The notes under the pieces: generated by a model | Databases searched by the model: none | The model's input: only the letters and a program-made list of their open reading frames with translations | What the model was told of the DNA's origin: nothing | Program-made: the position numbers and the translations under genes | Shown here: in pieces, positions 17,386 through 27,720 of the stretch | Position numbering within the stretch: the stretch's first letter is position 1 | How the letters are laid out: the number at the start of each line of letters is the position of its first letter | Source: Deltaproteobacteria bacterium | GTDB taxonomy: Bacteria > Myxococcota_A > UBA796 > GCA-2862545 | Direction: 5' to 3' | NCBI GenBank assembly: GCA_007693595.1 | Contig: REDI01000050.1 | Span: 186,001 to 250,000, forward strand | DNA length: 64,000 nt

Positions 17386-17462
17386 GGCTTCCGACTCACC
17401 CGGAACGACTTCGGTCGCAAGCCTTGTGGTCACTACCGCTCGGGGGTGGTAGAGAAGGCGCC

Positions 17463-18842
17463 GTGATTCATCGACTGCCCGCGTTGCTCTTAGGTCTGCT
17501 CGCGCCGCTCCTCGCGGTTGCGGGGGAGCCGGTGTTCCTCCCGGACTTCACGCCGACGACTACGTCGGACTTTAGCCTTGCCATGCTCCTGCAGCAGGCC
17601 GCGGTCGACGAGCTGAACAAGTCGGGCCATGTGGTGCTCCAGTCCGAAGCGGTCGAGTCCATCGTTGGGCCGACCTTCGGCTGCATCGACGATGCCGACT
17701 GTCCGATTCCCCAGCTCAAGCAGCTCCCCGCGCGGTTCGCGGTGGTCGTGGGGGTCCGGCGAACCAGCGGGGGCCGCATCATCACCGACATCGAACTGCA
17801 CGAGGTCGCGGCCGAAGCGGTCCTCGAGCGTCGAACGGTCGAGATCGTCGATGGCCGCGAGGGCTTGTTGGGGCGCGAGATCGCCGACATGGTCACGGAT
17901 CTGGCCAGCGTCATGGGGCCTGCGGATGGGTCTGCGCTCGTCAAGGCGGGCCGGATCCTCGCAGACTTTGAGGCGGCCTCTGCGCCCGCGCCTTCCAAGG
18001 AGCCCGCCGACACTCGCCCCGCCCGCCCTCGGCCCAACTCCGAACCCCTCAGCGACGACGCGCGGATCGAGCAAGCCCTCGACGAGACCGACTTCGAGCT
18101 GCGCCACCTAGAAGGCGTGCGGCAGCACTTCCTCGATCGGGATCTCGACATCCGAGACTGGAACTACCAATACGCCCCTCACGCAGGTCGAGTCATCATC
18201 GAGGTCCGAGGCGGCTTTGGGATCGGGGACGCCGATCGTATCGCCTTCGTCCGCACGCGCTACGACGATCAGGATCAGGAATTCCTCTGGTTCCTCGAAG
18301 GTCCCGCCCAGTCGCAGCGGCTCCGAGGGGAGCTCTACGTCGGCTATGCCCCGAGCGCTTGGGTCGACATCGGGGTCTTGATGGGGCTTCAGTACGGGGA
18401 GCGTGAGCTAAACTCGGGCTGGAACACCCCGGCCGAGTCCGACTCGGGCGTCGATCGGGCGCAGGCGGTGCAGTTCCACGTTCAGCCCAGAGTGCGCTTC
18501 TACCCCGTGCGCACCGGACCCTTCAAGCCATACCTCGTGGGAGGGGTCGATGTTCGCTTCTTCGACCGCTGGCGTCTCCGGCCTCCGCCGAACGTGCGCT
18601 ATCAGCCTCCTCCGGGGGGCGTGGCGGTCGGGCCTTCGGGTGGGCTGGGCTTCTTGATCGATCCGAGCCCGATCGTGGGCTTCTTCGTCGAGGGCACGAT
18701 CACCTCTCACCTCACCGAGCGCGGCTACTACTTCGAGTTTGAGCCTCCAAACCAGCCCGCGAACGCGGATGACCTCGTCGCGGGTCGCTACCCAGCAGGC
18801 TACTTGATCGTGCTCGCGGCCGGAGTGCAGTTCCGACTGTGA
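17463..18842 (+). CDS. Outer-membrane barrel-like protein coupled to mlaE
   Basis: 459 residues from GTG at 17463, with GAGAAGG five bases upstream. A signal peptide ends near LLAVAGE. Residues about 22-170 form an alpha/beta domain (PVFLPDF, VLQSEAVESIVG, FAVVVGVRRT) that recalls the TolB-N/CsgG-like fold. After a Pro-rich linker, residues about 235-459 have the alternating strands of an outer-membrane barrel (LYVGYAPSAWVDIGVLMGL, FKPYLVGGVDVRFF, LIVLAAGVQF). Its stop overlaps the ATG of mlaE (TGATG), so translation is coupled. A role in the lipid-transport system is inferred from position only. Confidence 0.82.
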   Translation: MIHRLPALLLGLLAPLLAVAGEPVFLPDFTPTTTSDFSLAMLLQQAAVDELNKSGHVVLQSEAVESIVGPTFGCIDDADCPIPQLKQLPARFAVVVGVRRTSGGRIITDIELHEVAAEAVLERRTVEIVDGREGLLGREIADMVTDLASVMGPADGSALVKAGRILADFEAASAPAPSKEPADTRPARPRPNSEPLSDDARIEQALDETDFELRHLEGVRQHFLDRDLDIRDWNYQYAPHAGRVIIEVRGGFGIGDADRIAFVRTRYDDQDQEFLWFLEGPAQSQRLRGELYVGYAPSAWVDIGVLMGLQYGERELNSGWNTPAESDSGVDRAQAVQFHVQPRVRFYPVRTGPFKPYLVGGVDVRFFDRWRLRPPPNVRYQPPPGGVAVGPSGGLGFLIDPSPIVGFFVEGTITSHLTERGYYFEFEPPNQPANADDLVAGRYPAGYLIVLAAGVQFRL

Positions 18843-19609
18843 TGGGGATCGTGCGCCAGGTAGGCCGCAACACGTTCGGCCTCATCGAAGAGTTCGGCCG
18901 CGTCTCCCGGGTCACAGGCCTGGGTGTTCTCAACATCCTGCTTCCCCCCTTTCGCTTTCGGCTCATCATCCGGCAGATGGCCTTCATCGGGGTGCAGAGC
19001 ATCCCGATCATCGCGCTGACGTCCTTCTTCACGGGGGCCGTGTTCACCCTGCAGTCCTTCCGGGCCTTCAGCCTGTTTGGGGCCGAGGGTTATGTTGGTG
19101 GAACTGTCGGAATCAGCTTGGCTAAAGAGCTGGGGCCGACCCTCACGGGCCTGCTCGTCGCCGGTCGCGCGGGCTCGGCGATGGCGGCGGAGATCGGCTC
19201 GATGCGGGTGAGTGAACAGATCGACGCCCTCGAGGCCATGGCGGTGGATCCCATCAACTTCCTGGTCAAGCCTCGCCTCGTCGCGGCCGTCCTCGTCACG
19301 CCGCTGCTGACCGCCATCTTCGTGGTCGTCGGGGTCTTCGGAAGCTGGGTGGTCGGGACCTTCGTTCTGGGCATGGACTGGCCCATGTTCTCGGTACGTC
19401 TTCGGCAGTGGGTCGACTGGGAGGATGTCGGAGGAGGCCTTCTTAAGGGCGCGGTCTTCGGCGCGATTATCGCGATCGTGGCCTGCTATAAGGGCCTGTA
19501 TACCACGGGTGGCGCCAAAGGGGTCGGGATCGCCACGACGACCAGCGTGGTCGTCGCGAGCGTGACGCTGCTCGTCAGCAACTACTTCATGTCGGCCCTG
19601 CTGCCATGA
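18842..19609 (+). CDS. mlaE: MlaE-type ABC transporter permease (phospholipid transport)
   Basis: 255 residues. It shows the MlaE family traits: an amphipathic N-terminal segment, five or so membrane helices, and the conserved stretch AKELGPTLTGLLVAGRAG followed by AAEIGSMRVSEQIDALEAM. MlaE is the inner-membrane permease of the MCE/Mla system that moves lipids between membranes. The ATG at 18842 overlaps the upstream stop by one base; a GTG three bases earlier is also possible. It overlaps mlaF by four bases (ATGA). Confidence 0.94.
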   Translation: MGIVRQVGRNTFGLIEEFGRVSRVTGLGVLNILLPPFRFRLIIRQMAFIGVQSIPIIALTSFFTGAVFTLQSFRAFSLFGAEGYVGGTVGISLAKELGPTLTGLLVAGRAGSAMAAEIGSMRVSEQIDALEAMAVDPINFLVKPRLVAAVLVTPLLTAIFVVVGVFGSWVVGTFVLGMDWPMFSVRLRQWVDWEDVGGGLLKGAVFGAIIAIVACYKGLYTTGGAKGVGIATTTSVVVASVTLLVSNYFMSALLP

Positions 19610-20526
19610 CGTCCACCGAGCCCGTCCCTGGGTCCGGTCCCGAGACGGCCCCCGATGACCGCCCGCCCTCCCAGGGGGGGCGGAGCGCTCTCGTCGAAGA
19701 AGGGGCAGGGGTGGTCGAGGTCGATCCCGATCATTCCGGCGTGCATGAGCTGAGCTGTGCCGTCACGGGCGCCCCGATCGTGATCCGATACGCCGACGTC
19801 CACAAGGCCTTTGGCACCTTCAAGGTGCTGCGCGGCCTCAACCTGGCGATCCCAGAGGGAAAGATCACCGCGATCATCGGTCGTTCGGGCACGGGAAAGT
19901 CCGTGACCATCAAGCACGTCATGGGCCTCCTTCGCCCTGACCGAGGGCGGATCTGGGTGGGGCCTGACGAGCTCACCGCCATGCCCGACCGTCGCCTTCG
20001 TGCGGTCCGAAACCGCTTCGGACTGGTCTTTCAGAACGCAGCCCTCTTCGACTCCATGACCGTCTTCGAGAACGTGGCCTTCCCGCTGGTCGAGCATGGA
20101 CGAGACAGCCGCGCTCAGGTGAGGAAGAAGGTAGGCCAACTCTTAGCCCAGGTGGGGCTGTCGGGCTCCGACGACAAGGTCCCAAGCGAGCTCTCGGGAG
20201 GAATGCGCAAGCGGGTAGGGCTCGCTCGGGCGCTGATCCGCGATCCGGCGTTTCTCTTTTATGATGAGCCCACCACGGGCTTGGATCCGATCCTCGCCGC
20301 CGCCATGGACGAGCTCATCGTGCAGACCCAAAACGCGCGCCCTGGGATCACGAGCGTCGTGATCAGCCACGATATGTCGGCCGTCCTCCGTACCGCGGAC
20401 AAGATCTGCATGATCGTGGATGGGGTGGTCCTGCATCAAGGGCCGCCGTCCTACTTCGTTCAGAGCACCGACCCGCTCGTACGTCAGTTCGTCGAAGGAA
20501 ACGTCGACGGGCCCATGAAGGTCTGA
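19606..20526 (+). CDS. mlaF: MlaF-type ABC transporter ATPase
   Basis: 306 residues. The ABC motifs are complete: Walker A GRSGTGKS, Q-loop VFQNAALFDSM, signature LSGGMRKRVGLARAL, Walker B FLFYDEPTTGLDP and H-loop VISHDM. About 60 residues of acidic, low-complexity N-terminus precede the usual start of the domain, and the ATG is fixed by the four-base overlap with mlaE. It powers the MlaE permease. A shorter start further in, near the IVIRYADVHKAF stretch, would fit the family length but lacks a clear ribosome site. Confidence 0.94.
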   Translation: MTSTEPVPGSGPETAPDDRPPSQGGRSALVEEGAGVVEVDPDHSGVHELSCAVTGAPIVIRYADVHKAFGTFKVLRGLNLAIPEGKITAIIGRSGTGKSVTIKHVMGLLRPDRGRIWVGPDELTAMPDRRLRAVRNRFGLVFQNAALFDSMTVFENVAFPLVEHGRDSRAQVRKKVGQLLAQVGLSGSDDKVPSELSGGMRKRVGLARALIRDPAFLFYDEPTTGLDPILAAAMDELIVQTQNARPGITSVVISHDMSAVLRTADKICMIVDGVVLHQGPPSYFVQSTDPLVRQFVEGNVDGPMKV

Positions 20527-20683: not shown

Positions 20684-22216
20684 ATGCCGGGCATGGCTGG
20701 TCGGTTCAACGATGAGTTCAAGGTCGGGCTGTTCGTCATCGTCGTTATCGCGGCGTTGGTGGGGGTATATTTCTTTACCTACGACGGTCTTTTCGCCGGG
20801 CCTGGCACCTACTCGGTCACGCTCCGGGCCCCGCGAGCCGATGGCTTGAACCAAGGCACTGCGGTCAAGCTCGCTGGGGTCAACATCGGCAGTGTCCGTC
20901 GGATCGGTCTCGCGGGCGGCGAGGCCGAGGTGGAGCTCATCCTCGACAAGCGCTACCAGCTCCCGATCGACAGTATCGCCGAGCTCAAGGCTACGGGTTT
21001 GCTGGGGGATACCTTCGTCATGGTGACCCTCGGCGATGACGAGATGGCCTTCCTTCAAGACGGGGATCGGATCCGTTTTGGGCGTGCGGCGGGCGATCTC
21101 GACAACATCACCCGTCAGATCGAGGAGGTCTCTACCGACGTCGCTGCGATCACCAAGGTCCTCCGTGAGATGGTCGAGGATCGACAGAATCGCGACAACG
21201 TCGAGGCCACCCTTGAGAACACCAGCGCCCTCACCGAGGAGCTCCGCCGCATGGCCGAGAGCAACCAGCGCGACATTCGAGCGATCGTTCAGAGCATCCG
21301 TCGGCTATCCGAGTCCCTCGAAGGGGTCGTCGAAGAGACCGGGCGCGACCTCGACGAAGAGTTCGACAAGATCAAGCTCGCCACCGACACACTTCAAGAG
21401 AGCCTCGACAATATGTCGTCGATCACGGGCAAGGTCGATCGAGGCGAAGGCACCGTCGGCGCTCTGATCAACGAACGCGACACCGTCGACTCCATCAACG
21501 ACGCCTTCGATGGCGTGACCGAGATCGTCGAGAGCTGGACCGGCCTTCAGGCGGATGTCTACAACTGGAACCGCTTCTACTTTGGCACCAACCCCTCGCG
21601 GGGGCCTGGGGGCGTGGCCCTCACCGATGAGATGGCGCGCGAGCTCTTTCCGCCGTTTGGCGACAACCGCTACAACATGATCTCGGGGCACGCCATCGGG
21701 GTTGACCTTCGTCCCCAAGAAGACTTCTGGTACACCTTCGAGCTCATCGCTCACCCCATCGGGAGCATCACTCACAACGAGTACCAACTCCCTTCGCGCT
21801 TTGGCGGTGGCGAGAGTACCTTCTTCCAAGAGTGGCGCGTAACTCAGGCCTTCCGGTACTCTTTCATGATCAATAAGCGCTGGTACGACTTCGCCTTCCG
21901 TGTCGGCGTCAAGGAGAGCAGCGGTGGAGCGGGGCTGACCTACTTCGCGGCCCAGGATCGGCTCCAGTTCCACGCCGATCTCTTCGACTGGACCTACGGC
22001 GGCTACCCTGCCATCAATGATCCCGATCTACTCGGGTTCAACACGCGCTTTCTCGTCCGCTACGAACCCCGCCGCGGTCTCTTCTTCGAGGCTGGTACCG
22101 AGAACATCGTGCCCGGTCTTCGATATGGCTACTTTACGGGTTTCGCAGGTGCGGGCTTCCACTTCAACGACAATGACATCAAGCTGCTCCTCGCTGCGTT
22201 GCCGATCGGGCGATAG
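20684..22216 (+). CDS. mlaD: MCE-domain protein (MlaD-like) with barrel-like C-terminal domain
   Basis: 510 residues. One membrane helix at about 13-32 (FKVGLFVIVVIAALVGVYFF) is followed by a single MCE domain (about 40-118; GTAVKLAGVNIGSVRRIGL, LKATGLLGDTFV). Residues about 125-270 are helical and likely coiled coil. The last 200 residues are beta-rich with aromatic girdles (DFWYTFELIAHPIG, RWYDFAFRVGVKES, GLFFEAGTENIVPGL), like an outer-membrane barrel. E. coli MlaD is about 180 residues, so the tail is a large addition. The gene follows mlaF after 157 bases. It may bridge inner and outer membranes; that is inference. Confidence 0.88.
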   Translation: MPGMAGRFNDEFKVGLFVIVVIAALVGVYFFTYDGLFAGPGTYSVTLRAPRADGLNQGTAVKLAGVNIGSVRRIGLAGGEAEVELILDKRYQLPIDSIAELKATGLLGDTFVMVTLGDDEMAFLQDGDRIRFGRAAGDLDNITRQIEEVSTDVAAITKVLREMVEDRQNRDNVEATLENTSALTEELRRMAESNQRDIRAIVQSIRRLSESLEGVVEETGRDLDEEFDKIKLATDTLQESLDNMSSITGKVDRGEGTVGALINERDTVDSINDAFDGVTEIVESWTGLQADVYNWNRFYFGTNPSRGPGGVALTDEMARELFPPFGDNRYNMISGHAIGVDLRPQEDFWYTFELIAHPIGSITHNEYQLPSRFGGGESTFFQEWRVTQAFRYSFMINKRWYDFAFRVGVKESSGGAGLTYFAAQDRLQFHADLFDWTYGGYPAINDPDLLGFNTRFLVRYEPRRGLFFEAGTENIVPGLRYGYFTGFAGAGFHFNDNDIKLLLAALPIGR

Positions 22217-22392: not shown

Positions 22393-25300
22393 GTGGGCGG
22401 AAAGAACGAGAACGATCCGATCGCCGACTTCTTCGGCGAAGATACCGACTGGCTCGACGACGAGACGGGGAGCGTGCCCAAACAGCCCGATCCCGCGCCC
22501 ACGTTACCGCCCCAACCCGCACCCGAGCTCAAGGGAGCGGCACCAGAGCGCAGGGAGCCTCCGGTGCGCCCGCCTGTCCCTCCACCGCCTCCTCCTCCGC
22601 TCAAGCCCGCCACCGAGGCCTTCCGAGCGGCCCCGACCGAGCCGCGGGGCGTGACCCTCGAAGAGCGGCAGCCGCCCTCCAAGGACCCAGCCCCTCACAA
22701 CGTGGCAGACGACACCGTTGGCTCCTTCTTGGAGCCTGTTTCCGAGGGCCCCCCCGTCTCGGCGCCCGACGATCAAGCCACGCTCACCGACGACGAGCCC
22801 GGTCCCTTCCCCGACGTGGTGGTCGAAGAAGATCGCGCCGAAGACATTGCTGATCTATCGAATCCTGGTTCCCCTTCGCCCCTCTCCCGCGACGAGCCCT
22901 CCGAAGAGATCGTGATCTCGGCCCAGCCGGTCGAGGCGCCCGAGCCCGAGCCCGACGAGGGCCCGGCCCCGGTCCGTGACGACCGAGTCTCCTGGTCCCC
23001 CTCCGACGAAGAGACCACCTGGCGCGAGCTCTGTGAGCCGGTGGAGCGACTCGCGAGATCGGTGAGCGATGAGCAGGTCGCCGCGGCTTTGCTCATCGAG
23101 GCGGCTCGGATCCGTCGTGACCGCCTTGGGGAGCCCGACGAGGCCCTGAGCCTCCTCGAGCAGGCCAAGGAGAAGGGGGCCACCGGGCCTGAGTTCCACG
23201 CCCTTCTCTCCGAGACGGCGGTTCGTCTGGCCGACTATGACTACGCGGCGAGGGCCATGGCCGATCGCGCCGAGAGGCTCACCGGCGCCGCCGCGGCCGA
23301 GGCCTGGCAAGCGGCGGGCATGATCGCCCGGCGACGACTGCGCGACTTGGAGATGTCTGAGCGTCACCTGCGACGCGCCGTCAAGGCCGATCCGTCGGAC
23401 TATGCCTCTCTCTCGCTCCTTCGGGACCAACTCGCGGTCAAGGGGCGAGAGGCCGAGCGGGCCGAGGTGCTCCAGGACCTGAGCAAGCTGGCATCGGGTC
23501 GGGTCGCGGCCGAGGCCTGGTGGGAGCTCGGGCGCCTCTACCTGGGACTCGACGAGATTAACGCCGCCCGAGCGGCCTTCGAGCAGGGGCGGGCCGCGGA
23601 TCCCTCCCAGGCGCAGTGCTTCTTGTCGCTGCAGACCCTCTACCAACACCTGGGCGACGACATGGCCCTCGGCCAGCTCTACATGGTTGAGAGCAAACGA
23701 GCTGAGGGACCGGATGCGGGCCAGTGGGCGATCGAGGCCGCCCGAGCCTTCGTCGACGCCCGCGAGGTTGACGCGGCGGACGAGGCCTTCGGCATCGCTG
23801 TCGAGCACGGCCACCCCTTGGCGCGGCGGGAGCAGCAGGCCTGGTTCGTCGCGACCCAGCGCCACAGGGACTACGAGCGTGCCCTGGTCGCCGAAATCGA
23901 GGAGCTCGAAGGCGAAGAAGGGGTCGCTCACGCCTGGTATCGCCTGGGCTGGCTCCGCGAGCATGAGCTCGAAGACCTTCAGGGGGCACTGACCGCCTAC
24001 CGCAGCGCGGTCGACCTCGACGCGGCCGCAGGACCTGCGGCCGAGTCGGTCGCGAGGGTCCTCTTGGCGGATGGGCAGTACGAAGAGCTCATCAAGTTCT
24101 GGCAACGGCGGGTCGAAGCCGCCGACGATCCCGACCTTCGGTGCTCGGTGCTGCTCCGTATGGCCGAGATCTCCGAGGCCCACCTCAGCGATGATCACCG
24201 GGCGCGGGCCTACCTTGAGCAGCTCTTGGGGATCAAGCCCGAGGAAAGAACGGCGCTCGAGTCGCTGCGGCGGATCTACCGTCGCCTCAAGTCATGGGCG
24301 GAGTTGGCTGTCGTCTACGAGACCCTCGCCTCCATCGAGTCCGCGCCCGAGGCACGGGCTCAACACCTCGCCCGTGCCGGCAACGTCTGGCGGTACGAAG
24401 CCAAGGATCCTGCGCAGGCGCGCGACTGTTACGGGCGGGCTCTCGAGCTTCAGCCGGGTCACGCCATCGCCCTCGACGAGCAGGTGGATCTTCTCGAAGA
24501 CGCGCAAGAGTGGGAGGAGCAGGCCAGGGTTCTCCGATCGGCGGCAGACGCCGTTCTCCTCGACGACGACAAGGTTCGACTGAGCTATCGATCGGGGCGA
24601 GTCTGGCTCGACCGGGTGGGGGATCCCCAGCGTGCTGGCGAGGCGTTCCGTAACTGCCTCCGCTACAATAGCGGCTTTCTTCCAGCCCTGGGCATGCTCA
24701 AGCAGATCGCCGCACGATCCGACCAAGGCCAAGAGATCTACCGGCTCTACCTTCAGCAAGCCCAAGCCCTCGAAGAACCCAGTGCACGCCACTGGCGTCT
24801 GCTCGCGGCAGCGAACCTGGCGGATCGGCTCACGGGGGGGGACCCCGGCCGAGATCTCGGCGCGATCTTGGAGCGCGACCCCACCCATCCCGGCGCGGTC
24901 GCAGCGCAGGAGCTGCGCTTGCTGAGCCTGGGCGCAAAGGTCGGGCTCCTCAACCTCTATCGACGGGTCTTGCAGTCGACCCCCGACAGCCCGCGTCGAG
25001 TCGTCTTGAACGCCCGGGTGGCGGGCTTGTTCGAAGCCCTCGGCGACGACGCTGGCTCCCACGCGCCACTCACCGAGGCGATCCAGAGCGCGGCCGAGGG
25101 AACCCCCTTTCGCGCTTTGGCTCGTCTCGCCGAGAGCCGCCGGTTGTGGGACCTCGCCGTCCACGCACTCGAGAAGTCGGACTCCGCGGAGGACCGGCTG
25201 GAGCGGGCGCGTCTACTCACGGTACGCCTCAAGCGTCCCGACGAGGCGCTCGAGCTCTACAAGGCCCTGCTGAGCCTCCCCGAGACGGCGCTCGGTGCCG

Positions 25301-27720
25301 CGCTCGGTACGGCAGCGTTGGCCCAGAGAACCGGCGATACCGAGTTGCTTGCTCGTGCGCACGGGATCCTCTCGGAGCACGTGGACGCCGAGCCGGTCAG
25401 CGCGGCGCACGCGCTGTGGTCTGGACAGCTCGCCGAGGCAGCGGGCCTCCACGACGAAGCCCTCACCCAGTACCATCGCGCCCTCGAGCTTCGTCCGGTC
25501 TCGGTCGCAGCCTTCGATGGGGCGCGGCGTCTGCTCTTGAACGCGTCCGATGCCGAGGGCCTCAAGGAGCTCTGGTCCAAGGCGCGCCCGGACCAGGCCT
25601 ATGGCTTGGCGCTGGATCTAGAGCAGGTCGAGGCCTACGAGGCGGCGGTCGAGGTCTGGAGGTCCTTGGACCGAGGGGACACGTCCAATCTCGGGATCTG
25701 GTCGCAGCTCGAGGTCGCCTTGTCGCGGGTCGACGCGTGGCGCGAGGTCTACGACATCGCCACCCGGCGCGCCGAGACGGTCGTCGATGAGGACGAGCGC
25801 GAGGTGATCCACGCCAAGCGTCGCTGGCTCCTCGCGCAGAAGCTGGCCGAGACCGACGAGGCCTGGTCTCTCTACCAGTCGCTCCACGAAGAGAACTCCG
25901 ATGACCGCGACGTGACCTCGGCCTTGGCGCGGATCGCGATGGCCCGCGGCGAGACCCGGATGGCGATCGGCTTTCTCGAGAACCTCGCCCAGGGGGCGTC
26001 GGATCCCAAGGAATCTGCTGCGCTTCAAGTCCGCATCGCTGAGGTCCATGAACACGCTCAGAACGTCGCCGATGCGCGTCAGGCGCTCTTCGATGCGCTC
26101 GACTACGTGCCCGACTATCAGCCGGCCCTCGAGGGCCTCAAGAAGCTGGCAGCGACGCAGGACGACTGGAAGGCCATGCTCGATGTGCTCAAGCTGGAGC
26201 AGGGGCGCGTCAAGGGGGATCGCAAGATCGAAGTCCTGCGCGAGATCGCTCGCCTCAATGCTGAGCACGTCGATGACGACGGGGTGGTCCTCGAGGCCTG
26301 GCGCTCGGTGCTCGACGCGGCCCCTGACGATGTCGAGGCGCTACGAGCCAGTTTGGAGCTCGCCGAGAAGAAGAAGAGCTGGGAATCTTATCTGGATCTC
26401 GCCGTCCATCTCGCGGAGCATCTCTCCGGGGCAGAACGAACCGAGGTCCTGGGGCGGGCGGGGCTCGTAGGTCTCGACGAGCTGGAACGGGCCTCGAGTG
26501 TCGACCTGCTCGAGCGAGCGATCTCCGAGGGGCCCTCCTACGGACCCGCCGCGGATCGCCTCGTCTCGTGGTACCGAGGCCGTGGCGAGAGAGATCAGGT
26601 GGTCCGCGTCCTGTCCTCGCAGGCCGACGGGGTCGCCGATCCCGAAAAGAAGGGATCCTTGTACGCGGATGCTGCGGAGATCCTCCAGGAGGCGCGGCAG
26701 ACGGATAAGGCGATCGAGCTATACAAAAAGGCGATCCACATCCGGCCGGACGAGCCCAGAGCGCTCAGGTATCTGGCGGATCATCTCTTTGAGCGGGGCG
26801 AGATCGCCGAAGCCTTACCTGTCTTCGAGCGCCTCGCACCGACGGTCGCCGAGGGGCAGGATCTCGACGACTTCGACGTGCGGATGGAGCTCTCGACCTT
26901 CTTCCACCGGCTGGCTCGCATGTTGATCGACAAGGATCGTGCGGGCGAGGCCCTGAGCTACGCGGAGAGAGCGCTCGAGTTCAATCCCTCGCATCAGCCC
27001 ACCCTCGAGATGGCCGCCCCGTTGCTGATCGCCAATGAGTCTTGGGATCGAGCCTACGATGTGCTCCGACAGCTCCTCCAGCTCTCGGGAGGCCAAGGTG
27101 AGCCCAAAAAGGTCGCGCGCATGTACGCCCAACTCGGGCTTGTGGAGCGGGCTCTGGGCCGCTCCGACAAGGCGCGCAAGCACTTCGATAAAGCGCTCTC
27201 GCGGGTGCCGCACCACGTCGATGCGCTCAAAGGGCTCGCCCTGCTCCACGAAGACCACCAAGAGTGGACGCAGCTCCTCGATATCTACAACGGTGTGATC
27301 GGACACGCGACCGAGCCCTCCGATGTGACGGCCGCTTACCTGACCAAGGGGCGGATCCTCGACGATCAGATGGGTCGGGCCGATAAGGCTGCCCAGCACT
27401 ACGAGCGGAGCCTCGCGTACGACGCGAACCAGCCGCAGGTCCTCCTCCGATTGGCCGAGCTGGCTTGGCGACGGAACGACTGGGACGAGACGGCGGCTCA
27501 GGCCCAGCGAGGGCTTGACCTGATCTTCAACCCGAGCCCGCTCCGCGCCGATCTCTGGCTCTGCCTGGCTGCGGCCCGTCACGGGCTGGGACAGCGGGCT
27601 CGGGCCCATCAGGCCCTCGACAGGGCGCGGTCCGACGCGCCGGATCTCGACCTTGGCGAGCAGCCTCTGGTGGACCTTGAGGCCCTTCGAGTTCGCGTGC
27701 GGAGCAGGTTACCCAAGTAG
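22393..27720 (+). CDS. Giant TPR-repeat protein
   Basis: 1775 residues from GTG. The first 200 are Pro-, Glu- and Asp-rich low complexity, starting NDPIADFFGEDTDWLDD. The rest is a run of degenerate and canonical tetratricopeptide repeats, for example CYGRALELQPGHAIALDEQ, YRKAIHIRPDEP-like KAIELYKKAIHIRPDEPRAL, and YAERALEFNPSHQPTLEM. No signal peptide or membrane helix is visible, so it is probably cytoplasmic and acts as a scaffold. Very large TPR proteins occur in Myxococcota polarity and motility systems, but nothing here ties it to one. The next gene, 48 bases on, also has TPR-like repeats. Confidence 0.88.
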   Translation: MGGKNENDPIADFFGEDTDWLDDETGSVPKQPDPAPTLPPQPAPELKGAAPERREPPVRPPVPPPPPPPLKPATEAFRAAPTEPRGVTLEERQPPSKDPAPHNVADDTVGSFLEPVSEGPPVSAPDDQATLTDDEPGPFPDVVVEEDRAEDIADLSNPGSPSPLSRDEPSEEIVISAQPVEAPEPEPDEGPAPVRDDRVSWSPSDEETTWRELCEPVERLARSVSDEQVAAALLIEAARIRRDRLGEPDEALSLLEQAKEKGATGPEFHALLSETAVRLADYDYAARAMADRAERLTGAAAAEAWQAAGMIARRRLRDLEMSERHLRRAVKADPSDYASLSLLRDQLAVKGREAERAEVLQDLSKLASGRVAAEAWWELGRLYLGLDEINAARAAFEQGRAADPSQAQCFLSLQTLYQHLGDDMALGQLYMVESKRAEGPDAGQWAIEAARAFVDAREVDAADEAFGIAVEHGHPLARREQQAWFVATQRHRDYERALVAEIEELEGEEGVAHAWYRLGWLREHELEDLQGALTAYRSAVDLDAAAGPAAESVARVLLADGQYEELIKFWQRRVEAADDPDLRCSVLLRMAEISEAHLSDDHRARAYLEQLLGIKPEERTALESLRRIYRRLKSWAELAVVYETLASIESAPEARAQHLARAGNVWRYEAKDPAQARDCYGRALELQPGHAIALDEQVDLLEDAQEWEEQARVLRSAADAVLLDDDKVRLSYRSGRVWLDRVGDPQRAGEAFRNCLRYNSGFLPALGMLKQIAARSDQGQEIYRLYLQQAQALEEPSARHWRLLAAANLADRLTGGDPGRDLGAILERDPTHPGAVAAQELRLLSLGAKVGLLNLYRRVLQSTPDSPRRVVLNARVAGLFEALGDDAGSHAPLTEAIQSAAEGTPFRALARLAESRRLWDLAVHALEKSDSAEDRLERARLLTVRLKRPDEALELYKALLSLPETALGAALGTAALAQRTGDTELLARAHGILSEHVDAEPVSAAHALWSGQLAEAAGLHDEALTQYHRALELRPVSVAAFDGARRLLLNASDAEGLKELWSKARPDQAYGLALDLEQVEAYEAAVEVWRSLDRGDTSNLGIWSQLEVALSRVDAWREVYDIATRRAETVVDEDEREVIHAKRRWLLAQKLAETDEAWSLYQSLHEENSDDRDVTSALARIAMARGETRMAIGFLENLAQGASDPKESAALQVRIAEVHEHAQNVADARQALFDALDYVPDYQPALEGLKKLAATQDDWKAMLDVLKLEQGRVKGDRKIEVLREIARLNAEHVDDDGVVLEAWRSVLDAAPDDVEALRASLELAEKKKSWESYLDLAVHLAEHLSGAERTEVLGRAGLVGLDELERASSVDLLERAISEGPSYGPAADRLVSWYRGRGERDQVVRVLSSQADGVADPEKKGSLYADAAEILQEARQTDKAIELYKKAIHIRPDEPRALRYLADHLFERGEIAEALPVFERLAPTVAEGQDLDDFDVRMELSTFFHRLARMLIDKDRAGEALSYAERALEFNPSHQPTLEMAAPLLIANESWDRAYDVLRQLLQLSGGQGEPKKVARMYAQLGLVERALGRSDKARKHFDKALSRVPHHVDALKGLALLHEDHQEWTQLLDIYNGVIGHATEPSDVTAAYLTKGRILDDQMGRADKAAQHYERSLAYDANQPQVLLRLAELAWRRNDWDETAAQAQRGLDLIFNPSPLRADLWLCLAAARHGLGQRARAHQALDRARSDAPDLDLGEQPLVDLEALRVRVRSRLPK

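Follow-up and report, generated by a model that had tools for sequence, protein, structure and literature searches.

Can a single bacterial polypeptide start in the inner membrane, end in the outer membrane and so offer lipids a direct path across the envelope? This question is raised by a long mlaD gene at 20684..22216 on the forward strand of the window, by which we mean the whole 64,000-nucleotide stretch of contig REDI01000050.1 that was analysed. The initial annotation read the product as an MlaD-like protein with one membrane helix, one MCE domain, a long helical section and a tail resembling an outer-membrane barrel, and suggested that such a bridge would need no soluble MlaC. Grasekamp et al. 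(2023; PMC10665443) have described Veillonella MlaD as a transmembrane domain, an MCE domain, a helix of about 150 residues and a predicted ten-stranded outer-membrane barrel. The study located the barrel in the outer membrane and the MCE part in the inner one, and proposed a long MlaD bridge dispensing with both MlaA and MlaC (PMC10665443). The idea of an inner-to-outer-membrane polypeptide was thus correct in essence and had been published before, and the long MlaD analysed here is a well-supported further example of the architecture.

Results

Domain organisation of the long MlaD

The gene encodes 510 residues, arranged as a transmembrane helix, an MCE domain, a helical span and a predicted C-terminal beta-barrel, all features being given on the forward strand. 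The single N-terminal inner-membrane helix covers about residues 10-34 (20711..20785) and appears at residues 5-33 in the AlphaFold2 model. Behind it lies a single MCE domain at residues 42-114 (20807..21025), which is matched by Pfam PF02470 (MlaD) with E=1.8e-16; the gene coordinates and both of these parts had been read correctly from the letters alone. Profile matches aligned the protein with structurally solved chains of MlaD and of mycobacterial Mce1, and the NCBIfam profiles OM_asym_MlaD (residues 11-145, E=4.8e-23) and Mtu_fam_mce (residues 15-265, E=3.2e-26) both matched below their cut-offs. A GLLGD motif at residues 107-111 sits at the MlaD pore-loop position, and its GLLG, a segment with a pore-loop role in E. 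coli MlaD, aligns with the solved MlaD chains.

The long helical section was also borne out, as an extended region of about 150 residues. It comprises approximately 148 residues (139-286; 21098..21541), which are mainly helical in the model but broken into several segments, and it carries a heptad-like hydrophobic stripe whose 3.5-residue period over residues 135-286 exceeds that of all 500 shuffles. The same residues are nearly free of indels (gap fraction of 0.003 in an alignment of 20 orthologues), and a GxGTxGxL motif lies within the span near residues 254-261. At 1.5 A per residue, about 150 residues would reach up to ~22 nm if they formed one continuous helix; since the helix is segmented in the model, the true span of this region is uncertain. 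A like-sized region is present in Veillonella, where the whole tube has a predicted length of 23.5 nm and the periplasm a measured width of 24.2 nm (PMC10665443).

Evidence for a barrel in the C-terminal tail

The remaining ~220 residues are beta-rich. AlphaFold2 placed ten antiparallel strands at residues 289-494 (21548..22165), followed by a helix, with low confidence (mean pLDDT 54.6, pTM 0.51); the full-length model, which was poor overall (39 and 0.30, respectively), had strands in the same tail region. The low confidence is attributable to the input alignment, which held three sequences, namely the long MlaD and only two relatives. The 50 PDB fold matches listed for the tail were outer-membrane barrels or engineered or designed membrane barrels, and included NalP, EspP, Ail, OmpX, OprF, OmpG and porins. 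For one of them, 9j9n, the title names just an artificial metalloprotein, and the alignment resembles those of the neighbouring porin matches. Among the matches listed, the top target-normalised TM-score (0.60-0.63) belonged to TMB10, a designed ten-stranded membrane barrel. No confident soluble beta fold was produced by structure prediction, and the fold search gave no support to a soluble-fold reading. A search of the PDB by sequence returned no match to the tail. The Pfam search likewise called no barrel family for the tail.

Apolar and polar residues alternate along the predicted strands at 0.67, compared to 0.32 +/- 0.07 for shuffled sequences, and none of 5000 shuffles reached the observed value. 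When a strand-free measure was used, the tail scored 0.48 and the MCE region 0.45, a gap so small that alternation alone is no proof of a membrane barrel. The tail is 19% aromatic and free of cysteine. Its last strand, FAGAGFHF (residues 487-494; 22142..22165), contains an invariant G489 and F494 and a near-invariant F492. Based on C-termini and alignment columns, the strand ends in [FY]xGxx-hydrophobic-x-F in 20 of 20 orthologues and in almost every one of 19 distant relatives. The beta-signal recognised by BAM has a polar residue in its first position; the tail motif starts with an aromatic residue and otherwise fits. Behind the last strand is a C-terminal helix (22166..22213) that is predicted to be periplasmic, with the conserved sequence NDNDIKLLLAALPIGR and a D-x-D-[LIVF]-K pattern that most relatives retain. 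Both ends of a ten-stranded barrel would face the periplasm, a geometry that fits a helix coming up from the inner membrane. The low-confidence model, the fold matches, the alternation and the beta-signal together predict a ten-stranded membrane barrel, as in Veillonella, and, along with conservation of the tail, they support the barrel proposed in the initial annotation.

Gene neighbours at the locus

Upstream on the same strand are mlaE, encoding the sole MlaE permease of the genome (18839..19609; PF02405, 5.2e-78), and the ATPase gene mlaF (19606..20526; ABC_tran, 8.7e-33; best NCBIfam match MlaF, 2.5e-59, below cut-off). The barrel mlaD adjoins mlaE and mlaF in 13 of the 18 loci of the order. 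In the other five relatives (G013 and four f2 genomes) the pair is not beside it, which is a natural split of the operon. G013 carries its mlaE-mlaF pair on another contig, 66-67% identical to that of the window, and the f2 genomes have a pair too, with no MCE gene among the ~650 bases retrieved on its downstream side.

The gene at 17424..18842 (forward strand) overlaps the start of mlaE by 4 nt. Its product is a candidate partner with a barrel-like C-terminus, as judged from synteny and a weak OMP_b-brl match (E=0.03). Of 13 family loci, 8 have it close by, two of these on the divergent strand, and a fragment of it still precedes the mlaE-mlaF pair in G013. No blastp match to it was obtained in the five f2/f5 loci of the order, nor in the majority of the distant loci.

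On the 3' side, the barrel mlaD is followed by a gene for a 1775-residue TPR protein (22393-27720) without an obvious signal peptide. A very large TPR gene has this position in 17 of the 18 loci of the order, and the contig ends there in the 18th. In one genome, G033, the barrel mlaD falls into two reading frames, of 406 and 124 residues, representing either a broken gene or an assembly error.

Mla content of the genome and distribution across the phylum

The genome is 4.92 Mb in length and 98.4% complete, and it encodes one MCE protein and one MlaE. Searches that were positive in E. coli and Caulobacter controls found neither MlaA nor MlaC in this genome, and a second Mla set was sought elsewhere in it and was absent. 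The genome accordingly lacks the six-component system of the E. coli type, with its short MlaD, MlaA and MlaC; having a single MCE protein, it also lacks a mycobacterial MCE transporter with six different MCE subunits. TamB and LolA are present, indicating a standard diderm envelope. MYXO-CTERM gave twenty matches in the genome and none in 14 control genomes, which suggests a Myxococcota-like lineage.

Twenty orthologues from the same family and order have the tail, with roughly 40-67% identity. Of 284 genomes sampled across the Myxococcota-like phylum, 177 gave a match to a tail-only profile, and at all 19 distant loci checked the tail was in frame with an MCE domain; blastp located mlaE within the stretch retrieved at 12 of these 19. 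In the same 284 genomes, MlaC was present in 217 and MlaA in 58. The barrel and MlaA never occurred together (0 of 177, with 36 expected; Fisher p = 5e-31, uncorrected for kinship), whereas the barrel and MlaC did so in 135 of 177 genomes, as expected of independent traits (Fisher p = 1.0). A serious caveat of kinship applies to the exclusion, as only ten family labels include MlaA and the pattern may stem from few events.

The suggestion that soluble MlaC is unneeded holds for this genome, and no MlaC was found in the barrel-bearing genomes of the family and order to which the window belongs; in the phylum's other families, the barrel MlaD and an MlaC-family protein often coexist. A role for the barrel as a general stand-in for MlaC is weakened by this independence. 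Barrel MlaDs have been reported to tend to be without both MlaA and MlaC (Grasekamp et al. 2023, PMC10665443), a picture that the phylum sample refines by tying the exclusion to MlaA. A barrel that is never found with MlaA and often found with MlaC looks more like a substitute for the former than for the latter. We tentatively suggest, at somewhat less than even odds, that the barrel of the long MlaD replaces MlaA in outer-membrane lipid uptake, and not MlaC, so that one step at the outer membrane would be accomplished either by the barrel or by MlaA.

Discussion

Domain order, gene neighbours, the absence of MlaA and MlaC and the conservation of the fused tail were observed directly. The locus probably encodes a minimal MlaEFD lipid transporter whose MlaD subunit serves as the bridge across the envelope. 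We infer the barrel fold, hexamer, tube, lipid cargo and direction of transport as follows. Six copies of MlaD would be seated on inner-membrane MlaE2F2, with their MCE domains forming a ring around a hydrophobic pore. Together, the heptad-repeat helices of the six chains would make a bundled tube, up to ~22 nm long, that carries lipids, and BAM would insert the ten-stranded barrels at the C-termini into the outer membrane. There, the barrels would anchor the tube and would probably aid the uptake of phospholipids, which is the job of MlaA elsewhere.

Several observations count against this model, namely the low confidence of the predicted structures, the absence of a PDB sequence match and of a Pfam barrel family for the tail, and the five relatives in which the barrel mlaD lies apart from mlaEF. 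In addition, Grasekamp et al. (PMC10665443) note that the Veillonella barrel does not have the width to let a phospholipid through and that, judging from AlphaFold, six barrels seem unlikely to form a ring, which leaves the outer-membrane step unexplained. The barrel might be an outer-membrane anchor only, with lipids passing at the mouth of the tube through another protein, perhaps the product of 17424-18842. This variant is compatible with the envelope bridge, and we regard it as possible but rather unlikely. The narrowness of the barrel speaks for it, as do the overlap of that gene with mlaE, its place near most family loci and its fragment beside mlaEF in G013, from which mlaD has moved away. 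Its absence from blastp results in the five f2/f5 loci and in the majority of the distant loci speaks against it, along with the weak barrel call for its product.

The tail might instead be a soluble periplasmic beta domain, or part of a multi-subunit beta crown as in Mce1, lying outside of the outer membrane. The low confidence of the model leaves room for this reading, soluble beta proteins alternate as well (as the nearly equal strand-free scores of tail and MCE region illustrate), and long MlaDs without barrels exist. We nonetheless consider it very improbable, given ten strands per chain, listed fold matches that are barrels only, the aromatic content, the beta-signal and the mutual exclusion with MlaA in the sample from the phylum. 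Cargo is a separate matter. Mycobacterial MCE systems take up sterols and fatty acids (PMC9882608), and the cargo is not revealed by sequence; a specialised import of lipids or hydrophobic nutrients, in place of general phospholipid traffic, is improbable, however, for the only MCE system of a genome, kept through most of the phylum in a manner that suits housekeeping. The bridging MlaEFD transporter remains our preferred reading.

The minimal MlaEFD bridge is hereby extended to a large Myxococcota-like group in which the fused barrel predominates, and the split between barrel MlaD and MlaA makes testable the purpose of the barrel, left open by the Veillonella work. Compared with known systems, the closest is MlaEFD of Veillonella parvula, which has the same order of parts, mlaE and mlaF as partners and no MlaA or MlaC. 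The two barrels are likened by part order and architecture, as compared with the published description; the Veillonella protein has 419 residues instead of 510, belongs to another phylum and differs from the long MlaD in that the latter has a conserved helix behind the last strand. E. coli MlaD shares the transmembrane helix, the MCE domain, the GLLG pore-loop region and the ABC partners, but has only 183 residues, has neither long helix nor barrel, and functions together with MlaA and MlaC in addition to MlaF, MlaE and MlaB. Mycobacterial Mce1 (8fed-8fef) resembles the long MlaD in having long, tube-forming helices behind its MCE domain, a likeness reflected in the profile match over residues 15-265 and in the match to its chains, and is unlike it in being a hetero-hexamer without a complete barrel in each chain.
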